DNA from: Egicoccus sp. AB-alg2
GTDB taxonomy: Bacteria > Actinomycetota > Nitriliruptoria > Nitriliruptorales > Nitriliruptoraceae
Direction of reading: 5' to 3'
DNA: 64,000 nucleotides
NCBI RefSeq assembly: GCF_041821065.1
Contig: NZ_JBGUAX010000001.1
Span: forward strand, 248,001 to 312,000
Part shown: positions 55,242-62,686 of the stretch, piece by piece
How the letters are laid out: each line of letters opens with the position of its first letter
Numbering within the stretch: position 1 is the first letter of the stretch
Program-made: the position numbers and the translations under genes
The notes under the pieces: generated by a model
Database searches by the model: none
What the model was told of the DNA's origin: nothing
What the model saw: the letters and a program-made list of their open reading frames with translations, nothing else

Positions 55242-56264
55242 GTGGACCCGTTGAACCTGCTCGAACCACCCCTTCGGGCAGACGCGGCCGCTCGTCTCGA
55301 GGCGGTCGAGGGGCGTCTGCACGCGGCCGTCGCCGCCCGCGATCCCCTCGCGGACCGCAGCAGTCGTCACCTGCTCACCGCCGGCGGCAAGCGGTTCCGA
55401 CCCCTGGTCACGGTCCTGGTGGCCACCGCGCTCGGGGCGCCGGGGCGCGACCGGCTCACCGCCGCCGCCTGCGCGAGCGAACTGCTGCACCTGAGCACGC
55501 TGTACCACGACGACGTGATCGACGGCGCCGACGTCCGCCGTGGCGTACCCAGCGCCAACGCCCGCTGGGGCGAGCGTCTGGCCGTTCTCGCGGGCGACCG
55601 CCTGACCGCGCTGGCGTTCGAGGCCGCCGCCGACGCTGGTGACGAGGTACCCGGGCTGCTGGCGCGCACCTACCGTCGGCTCGTCGAAGGCGAGCGCCTG
55701 GAGGCCAGCCTCGTCGGACGCATCGACGTCGGGGTGACGGGCTACCTCGAGGTCGTCGACGGCAAGACGGCCAGCCTGATCGCCGCCGCCGCCCGCGCCG
55801 GCGCGGCCATGGCGGGAGCGGCGCCGGCGATGCGAACGCGCGCCGAGGCCTGGGGCCGCACCCTCGGCGTCGCCTTCCAGCTCGCCGACGACCTGCTCGA
55901 CCTGACCGCCAGCGCCGAGGTCGCCGGCAAGCCCGTGGGCCACGACCTCGAGCTGGGCGTGTACACCTGGCCCGTCCTCGACGCCATCGGCTCCCCCGCG
56001 GGCGTGCGACTGCAGACGGTGCTGCGAGACCCGCCCCCGCACCCGCGGCCGGCCGTCGAGGAAGCCATGCAGATCGTGCACGGCTGCGGCGCCGTCACAC
56101 GCGCCGGCCGACTGGTCGAACGCTTCCTCGACCGCGCCGACGACCACCTCGGCGCGCTCCCACCGGGTCCGGCCCGCACGTCGCTGCGCACGCTCGGACG
56201 GGCGTTGGTCCCCCCGCCCGCCGCGGTCCCGTCCGCCCGGGTGCCCGAGGCGGTGGGCGCATGA
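55242..56264 (+). CDS. crtE: Polyprenyl diphosphate synthase (probable geranylgeranyl diphosphate synthase)
   Basis: This 340-residue all-trans prenyltransferase has GGKRFRPLV, the first aspartate-rich motif LYHDDVIDGAD (near residue 90) and the second motif QLADDLLDLTA (near 216), with DGKTASLIAAAARAGA between. It condenses IPP with allylic diphosphates. Position before phytoene synthase suggests GGPP as product, although chain length cannot be read safely. I chose the GTG at 55242, which has GGAG six bases upstream, over a TTG at 55206. crtB overlaps its stop (ATGA). Confidence 0.88.
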   Translation: MDPLNLLEPPLRADAAARLEAVEGRLHAAVAARDPLADRSSRHLLTAGGKRFRPLVTVLVATALGAPGRDRLTAAACASELLHLSTLYHDDVIDGADVRRGVPSANARWGERLAVLAGDRLTALAFEAAADAGDEVPGLLARTYRRLVEGERLEASLVGRIDVGVTGYLEVVDGKTASLIAAAARAGAAMAGAAPAMRTRAEAWGRTLGVAFQLADDLLDLTASAEVAGKPVGHDLELGVYTWPVLDAIGSPAGVRLQTVLRDPPPHPRPAVEEAMQIVHGCGAVTRAGRLVERFLDRADDHLGALPPGPARTSLRTLGRALVPPPAAVPSARVPEAVGA

Positions 56265-57172
56265 CCGGCCGCGACAGCAGCAACGTCTGGCCGGAGGTCA
56301 CGGCCGTCATCCGCCACCACTCCACGACCTTCTGGCTCGGCAGCTGCCTGATGACCGGCGAGCGGCGGCGCGCCACCCGTGCAGTCTACGCCGCCTGTCG
56401 GATCGGGGACGACGCCGCCGACCTCGCGCCGCGCCCACGGGAGGCCGTCGCCGTCTGGCAGACCCGCATCGAACAGGCCTACCTCGGCCGGCCCGTCGAG
56501 CCCTGGGAGCGGGCCCTGGCCTGGGCGGTGCGTCGATTCCCGGTGCCACGCGCCGCCTTCCACGCCCTCGCCGACGGCTTCCGCGCCGACTTCGGCAGCG
56601 TGCGCCTGGCCACCTTCGCCGACCTCGACCGGTACTGCTTCCAGGTCGCCGGGGCCGTCGGCCTCATGATCGCCCCGATCTGCGGGGCGCACGGCCCGGC
56701 CGCCGAGCACGCCGCCGATCAGCTCGGCCGCGCGATGCAGTTGACGAACTGCCTCCGTGACGTCGGCGAGGACCTCGCCCGGGACCGTGTCTACCTGCCG
56801 GCGGACCTCCTGGCCGCCTACGGTGTCACGCTCGACGACCTACGGAGCGACGTGCGCGGACCCCGCTACCGGCGGCTGATGGAGCACCTCGCCCACGAGG
56901 CCGAGCAGCGCTTCGAGATCGGACTCGACGGCCTGCACCACCTGCGCCACCACCGCACCGCCGTCGCCTATGCGGCCGTCCAGTACCGCGCCATCCTCGA
57001 CGAGTTGCGCGCCGGTGGCTGGGACAACCTGCGGCAGCGCGCCAGCGTGCCGCCGGCCCGCCGTGCCCGCCTGCTCGCCGAGGCCCGCAGCGCCACCCGG
57101 GCCGCCGGCACCGCCCCCGCCGCCCCGTCCCCGCAACCCCTGGCGGGCACCGGCACGGGAGGCGCGGGGTGA
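56261..57172 (+). CDS. crtB: Phytoene/squalene synthase family protein (phytoene synthase)
   Basis: This 303-residue enzyme has HHSTTFWLGSCLM at the start, the first aspartate motif CRIGDDAAD (near residue 50) and the second motif NCLRDVGEDLARDRVYLP (near 168). These bind the two GGPP diphosphates through Mg2+. It joins two GGPP to phytoene. The context (crtI, cyclase) favours phytoene over squalene synthase. The ATG overlaps the upstream stop, and its own stop overlaps the cyclase GTG (GTGA). Confidence 0.92.
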   Translation: MTGRDSSNVWPEVTAVIRHHSTTFWLGSCLMTGERRRATRAVYAACRIGDDAADLAPRPREAVAVWQTRIEQAYLGRPVEPWERALAWAVRRFPVPRAAFHALADGFRADFGSVRLATFADLDRYCFQVAGAVGLMIAPICGAHGPAAEHAADQLGRAMQLTNCLRDVGEDLARDRVYLPADLLAAYGVTLDDLRSDVRGPRYRRLMEHLAHEAEQRFEIGLDGLHHLRHHRTAVAYAAVQYRAILDELRAGGWDNLRQRASVPPARRARLLAEARSATRAAGTAPAAPSPQPLAGTGTGGAG

Positions 57173-60172: not shown

Positions 60173-61659
60173 CACGTGCACTCGTCCTCGGTGCCGGCAT
60201 CGGCGGCCTGTCCGCCGCCGCACGGCTCGCCCACGCCGGCTACGACGTCCAGGTCCACGAACGGCTGCCCCGCCCCGGCGGGCGCGGCAACGTCATCCAG
60301 CGCGACGGCTTCCGGATCGACACCGGTCCCAGCATCCTGCTGATGCGCGACATCGTCGAAGCCACGTTCGCCGACGTCGGGGCCGACCCCGCCGACTACG
60401 TCACGATCCGCCGTCTCGACCCCGCCTACAAGGTGTTCTTCGCCGACGGCGCGCGCATGGAGGCCCGCGTGGAACGCGAGGCCCTGAAGGCGGAGCTCGA
60501 CCAGATCGAGCCGGGCGCGGGCGCCCGTTTCGACGACTTCGCGGCCATCGGCGACAAGCTCTACCGCGGCGCGCGCGAGCACTTCGTCGAGCGCAACTTC
60601 CGCTCGCTGCGCGAGATGTTCGGCATCTCGAACCTGCCCCAGTTCGTCTCGCTGCGGGTCTACGAACCGATGCACAAACTGGTCGGACGCCACTTCAAGG
60701 ACCCGCGGCTCCGCCAGCTGTTCACCTTCAACGCCATGTACATCGGGATGAACCCGTTCACGGCCCCCGCCATCTACGCGCTGCTGCCCTACAACGACAC
60801 CGTCGAGGGCGTGCACTTCACCGACGGCGGCATGTACGGCCTCGTGGAGGGGCTGGTACGGCTGTGCCGCGACCTCGGCGTCGACGTCGTCTGTGACCAC
60901 CCCGCCACCGGCGTCATCCAGCGGGGCGGCCGCGCGGCGGGCCTGCACTTCGACGACGGCGACCTCGAAGCCGACCTGACCCTCGTCAACGCCGACTGGC
61001 CGTGGGCACAGCGGCGGCTGCTGGGCCGCGAGCCACGCCACCCGCTGGGCAAGAAGCTGCGCTACGGACCGTCCGCATTGAACTTCTACTTCGGGGTCCG
61101 CGGCGACCTCGGCGACCTGCGGGCACACAACGTCGTGTTCGGCGACGACTACGAGGGCAACTTCAGCGACGTCTTCGCCGGCCGTGTGCACGAGCGCCCG
61201 TCCTACTACGTCCACGTGCCGACCCTGGCCGACCCGTCGCTGGCGCCGGACGGACACCACATCGCCTACGTTCTGGTGCCCCACAGCAACTCCGACGCAC
61301 CCATCGACTGGGAACACGAACGGGACCGTGTGCGCGACTACGTGCTGACCGACCTGGCCGCCAAGGGGGTCGACCTGCGCGACCGGATCGTGCTCGAGGA
61401 GGTCATCGACCCGCCGCGGTGGGCCGACGAGTTCTCGCTCGACCGCGGCGCGACCTTCGGGCTGTCGCACTCGGTGAGCCAGGTCGGCTACCTGCGGCCA
61501 CACAACAAGGACCCACACCTGCGCGACCTGTACTACGTCGGCTCCTCCACCCACCCCGGGGCCGGCGTGCCGATGGTGATGCTCTCCGCCCGCCTGGTCA
61601 CGGAACGGATCGTGGACGAGCACCCGCCCGCCCGGCTCGGGGAGACGGTGCGTGCCTGA
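60169..61659 (+). CDS. crtI: Phytoene desaturase (CrtI family)
   Basis: This 496-residue FAD-dependent desaturase has the dinucleotide motif [19 protein letters not shown] at the N-terminus, [20 protein letters not shown], and the C-terminal carotenoid-desaturase signature [20 protein letters not shown]. It would convert phytoene to lycopene by four desaturations; the exact number of steps is inferred. The start is GTG, overlapping the P450 stop. The isomerase starts eight bases before its end. Confidence 0.94.
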
Positions 61660-62686
61660 GGGGATCCTCGACCGCAAGCGCCGCCACCTCGAGGTCTGCC
61701 TCGAGGAGACGGTCGACTTCCAGACCCGCACCACCGGGCTGGAGGACGTCGAGGTCCCCTACCACGCGCTGCCCGACCTGGACCGCGACGGGATCGACCT
61801 GGGCACCTCGCTGCTCGGCCGACGGTTGCGCGCGCCGTTCCTGATCGGAGCGATGACCGGCGGCGAGGAACGCGGCGGTCGCATCAACCGGGCCCTCGCC
61901 GAGGCGGCCCAGCGCTGCGGGGTCGGGCTGATGCTCGGCTCGCAGCGCGTCATGCTCGAGCGCCCCGAGGCACGCCACAGCTTCCAGGTGCGCGACCTGG
62001 CACCGGACGTGCTGCTGGTGGGCAACCTCGGCCTTGCCCAGTTCGTGGCCGGCTACGGCCCGGCCGAGGCCGAGCAGGCCGTCGACGAGGTCGGCGCCGA
62101 CGCGCTGGCCGTGCACTGCAACCCGCTGCAGGAAGCCATCCAGGGCGGCGACGTCGACTTCCGGGGCGGTCGTGACCACCTGGCGCGCCTTGCCGAGGCG
62201 CTGCCGGTCCCGGTCGTGGTCAAGGAGGTCGGTCACGGCATCGGCCGGCGGGCCGCCCGGCAGTTGGCCGGCCTGCCGCTGGGGGCGGTCGACGTGGCCG
62301 GCGCCGGCGGCACGTCATGGGCACGGGTCGAGCAGTTCGTCGCCCACGGCGCGGTCGTGCGTCCCGACGTGGCCGAGATCGGCGTCCCGACGGCCCGGGC
62401 CCTGCTCGAGGTGGGCAGCGAACTGCCGGAGATCCCGCGCATCGCCTCCGGCGGCATCCGCAACGGCACGGACGCCGCCCGGGCGCTGCTCCTCGGCGCC
62501 TCGGCCGTGGCGGTGGCACGGCCGCTGCTCGCGCCGGCGCTGGCGGGCGCCGACGCCGTCGTCGCGTGGATCGAGGAGTTCCTCGACGAACTGCGCACCG
62601 TCATGTTCGCCGCGGGCGCCGGCGACGTGGCCGCGATGCACCGGCTGGGGTTGCACGCCGGCCCGGTCGCACCGGTGGTGCCGTAG
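61652..62686 (+). CDS. fni: Type II isopentenyl-diphosphate delta-isomerase
   Basis: This 344-residue FMN enzyme of the type II IPP isomerase family has [54 protein letters not shown] and [20 protein letters not shown]. It interconverts IPP and DMAPP and so feeds the prenyl synthase at the head of the operon. It is the last gene in the carotenoid cluster, and converges with uvrB 16 bases downstream. The start is GTG, overlapping crtI. Confidence 0.93.

Follow-up and report, generated by a model that had tools for sequence, protein, structure and literature searches.

The closest described relatives of the locus studied here are the carotenoid gene clusters of Thermus, of Meiothermus and Deinococcus-like genomes, and of Micromonosporaceae. 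In the published model for Thermus, the GT2-type glycosyltransferase of the cluster is named CruC and the acyltransferase CruD (PMC4021367). The main carotenoid of Meiothermus ruber is a glucoside of a β,ψ-caroten-2-one (PMC3035268), and the cytochrome P450 CYP287A1 from Deinococcus introduces a hydroxyl group at C-2 (PMC11306087). Here, we describe a seven-gene operon at positions 55242-62686 of a 64,000-nucleotide stretch of the genome of Egicoccus sp. AB-alg2 (contig NZ_JBGUAX010000001.1, positions 248,001 to 312,000; family Nitriliruptoraceae), referred to as the window, whose host assembly is a 98.5% complete draft of 4.84 Mb. The operon quite likely directs the synthesis of a glycosylated, β-ring-oxygenated C40 carotenoid; its P450 lies outside the CYP175 family found in Thermus, and in a sister species P450 and GT2 are encoded by a single gene.

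The operon and its predicted product

The seven open reading frames (ORFs) are located back to back on the plus strand, and all of them were confirmed to be present:

55242..56264, plus strand: polyprenyl diphosphate synthase, probably a geranylgeranyl diphosphate synthase (PF00348 polyprenyl_synt, 1.7e-58; DDxxD motif YHDDVID)
56261..57172, plus strand: phytoene synthase CrtB (PF00494 SQS_PSY, 2.6e-63; 53% identity to CrtB of Thermus HB27)
57169..57894, plus strand: fused lycopene cyclase of the CrtYc-CrtYd type (two TIGR03462 stretches, 4.2e-43; 45-53% identity to the Thermus cyclase)
57882..58961, plus strand: CruC-like GT2 carotenoid glycosyltransferase (PF00535, 2.6e-18; 51% identity to the Thermus gene called CruC; GT2 tree)
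58958..60172, plus strand: cytochrome P450 of a clade from Meiothermus and Catellatospora carotenoid clusters, termed group A, not CYP175 (Pfam p450, 2.8e-35; tree, topology tests and alignment)
60169..61659, plus strand: phytoene desaturase CrtI (TIGR02734 crtI_fam, 443.7 bits, above the cut-off; solved relative 4dgk, a phytoene dehydrogenase, 2e-66)
61652..62686, plus strand: type 2 isopentenyl-diphosphate isomerase Fni (TIGR02151 IPP_isom_2, 351.8 bits, above the cut-off; 59-60% identity to Thermus Fni)

The prenyl synthase gene starts with GTG at 55242 or, alternatively, with an in-frame TTG at 55206. Successive genes overlap by 4, 4, 13, 4, 4 and 8 bp; coordinates and family searches thus agree with an earlier reading of the sequence alone (the sequence-only reading), which had described seven consecutive carotenoid genes with junctions overlapping by 4-13 bases. 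A scan for promoters and terminators found none. The gene order is kept in G040, G041 (in pieces) and G042, which belong to the same genus, and in G047 from another genus, so the arrangement is not due to chance. The overlaps in G042 are identical to those in the window (4, 4, 13, 4, 4, 8), while G047 has 4 bp at each junction but 8 bp before Fni. The P450 is rare: among 66 genomes of the class, six have a match at 1e-20, one of them weak (43%, C-terminal part), and a sample of 396 genomes from the phylum contains four with a match at 1e-40. A different crtI-crtB-crtY set, about 30% identical, is present in five further members of the family (L019-L023).

In the proposed pathway, Fni would balance isopentenyl and dimethylallyl diphosphate, the prenyl synthase would form geranylgeranyl diphosphate, and CrtB and CrtI would convert it to lycopene. 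The fused CrtYcd cyclase would then turn lycopene into β-carotene, presumably as a bicyclic product, the P450 would hydroxylate the β-ring, and the CruC-like GT2 would attach a hexose, probably glucose, to the hydroxyl group made by the P450. The genes with their order, overlaps and conservation, the P450 clade and the fused frame described below are observed, whereas we infer what each enzyme does, the two-ring structure, the site of oxygenation, the sugar and the end product. Searches of the window genome bear on several of these steps. The only FA_hydroxylase (PF04116) match is a 303-residue sterol-desaturase-type ORF located elsewhere near a thiolase-type gene; no CrtZ was found. CruF (PF04240) gave no match while the controls were positive, in a search that did not include CrtR hydroxylases and CrtC hydratases; no origin of the acceptor hydroxyl other than the P450 is therefore evident. 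A search for rhodopsin (PF01036) also gave no match, but neither did its controls, so absence is not shown.

A CruD-type acyltransferase is encoded neither in the operon nor, as far as matches are concerned, elsewhere in the window genome (G000) or in G040, and the search of G041 and G042 yielded generic matches of about 20 bits only. In G047, on the other hand, an acyltransferase of 210 residues (L011:4636-5268) lies where Thermus has it, with CrtY on one side and GT2 on the other, and shares 44% identity with the Thermus protein. Since G047 keeps CruD and the window genome and G040 lack a match, CruD seems to have been lost in the genus of the window, and because no such acyltransferase was detected, the glycoside probably lacks the acyl group of the thermozeaxanthins.

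A P450 outside the CYP175 family

The P450 contains the motifs AGxDT, ExxR and the heme motif FSAGQRTCLG. The sequences for comparison came from a GT2-profile scan of named genomes, which returned 80 loci; a contig scan of genomes with the P450 alone as query gave no matches. Fifteen of the 80 loci contain a P450 that is about 47-83% identical to that of the window (Nitriliruptoraceae-type, Meiothermus and Micromonosporaceae genomes), and seven contain a CYP175-type P450 (Thermus and one Armatimonadetes genome). The sequence-only reading had compared the P450 with CYP175A1 and proposed a phylogeny against CYP175. That phylogeny places it outside: group A and CYP175 are each set apart by a branch in every bootstrap tree (split 100/100), and the window P450 groups with those from carotenoid clusters of Meiothermus, Deinococcus-like genomes and Micromonosporaceae (about 50% identity), with about 28-29% identity to CYP175A1. 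In the approximately unbiased (AU) test, a joint clade of the Nitriliruptoraceae P450s and CYP175 was rejected with p 2.8e-51, and the comparison with CYP175A1 does not hold in this respect. An assignment as CYP175, i.e., as a β-carotene 3-hydroxylase, would call for at least about 40% identity to CYP175A1 and a common clade; 28% and separate clades were found, which rules it out. The P450 nevertheless does not fall among non-carotenoid families, the outcome named beforehand as speaking against a role in carotenoid synthesis; it is a carotenoid-cluster P450, only not a CYP175. A single clade of group A and CYP175 versus seven other P450s was also rejected (AU p 0.0002), a provisional result, since the outgroups are few and the groups were named after a first tree. 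Provisionally, the window P450 would thus have been recruited separately from CYP175A1.

The AlphaFold model of the P450 (mean predicted local distance difference test score 64.8) displays a plain P450 fold, whose best matches are tied: CYP184A1 (Z 26.2), CYP120A1 (25.6) and CYP175A1 (25.0). Because of this tie, the model cannot decide the position of oxygenation.

The glycosyltransferase and a natural GT2-P450 fusion

In the GT2 tree, which contains no biochemically characterised CruC, the GT2s from both kinds of P450 cluster form one clade with Thermus inside (Shimodaira-Hasegawa-like approximate likelihood ratio test, SH-aLRT, 100). The DxD-type motif FTDADV is invariant in the alignment, and the nearest NCBIfam model is CruG, below its cut-off. 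In Micromonosporaceae, the genes for GT2 and group A P450 are immediate neighbours, and in Meiothermus and Deinococcus-like genomes a single gene separates them. That the GT2s form one clade and the P450s two groups is most simply explained by replacement of the P450 next to a retained GT2. The same GT2 clade also seems to serve two kinds of hydroxyl groups, since the acceptor is on the ring in Thermus and at C-1' in Meiothermus-type clusters.

The two enzymes are bound together more strongly than by gene order in G040, where GT2 and P450 form one open frame of 768 residues (L009:8680-10986, minus strand). The fusion was seen in this one genome, whose assembly is a single contig of 3,980,161 bases. 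The stop codon of the GT2 is gone, and an in-frame linker rich in Pro, Asp and Thr (about TLDDTPVLDRHPDSPLTPSDGT) connects GT2 to P450. The linker has a GC content of 0.89 at third codon positions, and ATG, GTG and TTG are all missing between the end of the GT2 and residue 437, a position within the P450. A sequencing error was considered as the origin of this frame and is unlikely, because what stands in place of the stop is extra in-frame sequence that looks coding, rather than a single indel. A literature search for natural P450-glycosyltransferase fusions in carotenoid synthesis returned only a general review combining these topics, a weak indication that this fusion has not been described before. 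The fused frame suggests that the P450 and GT2 reactions, hydroxylation and glycosylation, are probably coupled physically.

Position of oxygenation and alternative explanations

That P450 and GT2 work together to give a glycosylated C40 carotenoid oxygenated on the ring had already been predicted in the sequence-only reading. This prediction gains support from the recurrence of the pair in Thermus, Meiothermus and Micromonosporaceae clusters, from a genome without CruF or CrtZ match and from the G040 fusion. As to the position of the oxygen, no group A P450 is known to us to have been assayed. Group A P450s sit in Meiothermus and Deinococcus-like clusters, and the M. ruber pigment and the CYP287A1 product carry the oxygen at C-2; judged from the P450 clade, C-2 is hence at least as likely as C-3 and somewhat more so. 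A Deinococcus-like genome with DdrB (G074) encodes a group A P450 in a CruF cluster, 50% identical to that of the window, which is no more than a hint of a CYP287-type enzyme. It is tempting to speculate that a C-2 hydroxylase of a non-CYP175 clade and a CruC-type GT2 form one unit making unacylated carotenoid 2-O-glycosides, with two P450 clades recruited independently. As a whole, this proposal is rather doubtful; its two-recruitment part has support from the AU test against few outgroups. Hydroxylation at C-3 would instead yield zeaxanthin or cryptoxanthin and, after glycosylation, zeaxanthin glucosides, i.e., unacylated thermozeaxanthin analogues. This is plausible, if not favoured: CrtB, CrtY, GT2 and Fni resemble the Thermus cluster, which makes 3-hydroxy products (zeaxanthin glucoside esters), and the Thermus GT2 falls inside the same GT2 clade; however, the P450 is no closer to CYP175 than P450s in general are to each other, and its clade is found in settings that yield C-2-oxygenated pigments.

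Some fused CrtYcd cyclases, such as Deinococcus CrtLm, form a single ring, and in Meiothermus- and Deinococcus-like clusters the group A P450s are accompanied by CruF and a further CrtI-like enzyme. The P450 might thus oxidise the one ring of a γ-carotene-type product, while the GT2 acts on an acyclic end hydrated by an enzyme encoded elsewhere. We consider this unlikely, as CruF is absent from the operon in all five genomes and the control-validated search of the window genome, which left CrtC-type hydratases aside, found none. That P450 and GT2 act on hopanoids, a secondary metabolite or other non-carotenoids and are merely carried along in the operon is highly improbable. The GT2 does match the hopanoid-associated NCBIfam model HpnB with 117 bits, far below the cut-off, but the P450/GT2 pair recurs in carotenoid clusters of both Actinomycetota and Deinococcota and the Thermus homolog of the GT2 is named as the carotenoid glucosyltransferase CruC (PMC4021367).

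Several points weigh against a ring-oxygenated, ring-glycosylated product. It is predicted from the gene content, and the ring hydroxyl as acceptor of the GT2 is an analogy to Thermus, the acceptor being the C-1' hydroxyl in Meiothermus and Deinococcus, where CruF is present. The CrtYcd cyclase of the window could itself be monocyclic, and the lack of CruF and CruD was read from a draft that is 98.5% complete. With regard to C-2, we also infer that the clustered P450 is the source of the Meiothermus C-2 oxygen, and D. radiodurans CYP287A1 was not among the compared sequences and therefore stands outside the group A comparison.

Neighbouring genes, origin and implications

Divergent from the operon lies one further conserved gene:

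54697..55098, minus strand: hydrophobic, probably membrane protein of 133 residues, kept beside the operon in G040, G041, G042 and G047

The protein has three invariant histidines (H8, H76, H104) and no Pfam family above the cut-off, with cytochrome b561 models only at chance level (E about 0.6); it could be a heme protein and perhaps an electron donor. A histidine kinase with a MEDS sensory domain (53161-54648, minus strand), a possible regulator, is encoded next to the operon and kept in G040 and G042.

The window CrtB groups with Thermaceae CrtBs (SH-aLRT 99), apart from those of other genomes of the family and of Micromonosporaceae, which suggests gene transfer between Deinococcota and the window lineage in either direction.

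With two P450 clades beside the same kind of GT2, the P450 appears as a swappable part of glycosyl-carotenoid clusters. This swap allows the determinants of the ring position (C-2 versus C-3) to be studied directly, together with the preference of CruC-type enzymes for hydroxyls on the ring or on the chain. The G040 fusion provides a natural test case for coupled hydroxylation and glycosylation, useful for more water-friendly xanthophylls.

Comparison with known carotenoid clusters

On pTT27 of T. thermophilus HB27, the order is crtB, phr, CYP175A1, cyclase, acyltransferase, GT2, transposase and toxin-antitoxin genes, crtI and fni. The window operon has the core set of a Thermus-type carotenoid-glucoside cluster (CrtB, CrtI, CrtYcd, CruC-like GT2 and P450), with the P450 replacing CrtZ and crtI and fni adjacent. 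A built-in Fni, which had been put forward as a difference from Thermus, is therefore none, as fni directly follows crtI on pTT27. Identity to Thermus is 53% for CrtB, 45-53% for CrtY, 51% for GT2 and 59-60% for Fni, and low for CrtI (36-38%) and P450 (about 28-29%). The operon differs in its P450 clade, an extra prenyl synthase, the gene order and the lack of adjacent CarH/LdrP regulators and photolyase. It also lacks CruD, the acyltransferase of glucoside ester synthesis, and is thus a variant resembling the Thermus cluster, not the same system.

Meiothermus and Deinococcus-like clusters share with the window the P450 clade (about 50% identity) and the wider GT2 clade, but carry CruF, a second CrtI-like enzyme and an acyltransferase, all three of which the window operon lacks; in M. 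ruber, the sugar is at C-1'. In one Deinococcus-like locus (L155, G074) and one of Meiothermus type (L163, G111), CruF, acyltransferase, GT2, CrtI-like enzyme and group A P450 lie in one run. The clusters of the Micromonosporaceae Catellatospora and Hamadaea contain CrtB, cyclase, acyltransferase, GT2 and P450. As in the window, GT2 is directly followed by a group A P450 (47-51% identity), CruF has no match, and the GT2/P450 overlap in C. sichuanensis is 4 bp; however, CrtB and CrtI are of the usual actinobacterial type and only 33-40% identical, the acyltransferase is kept and no Fni match lies beside the cluster. Taken together, the pathway encoded by the window operon is of a known kind; it uses a different P450, lacks CruD and, in a sister species, has GT2 and P450 fused.

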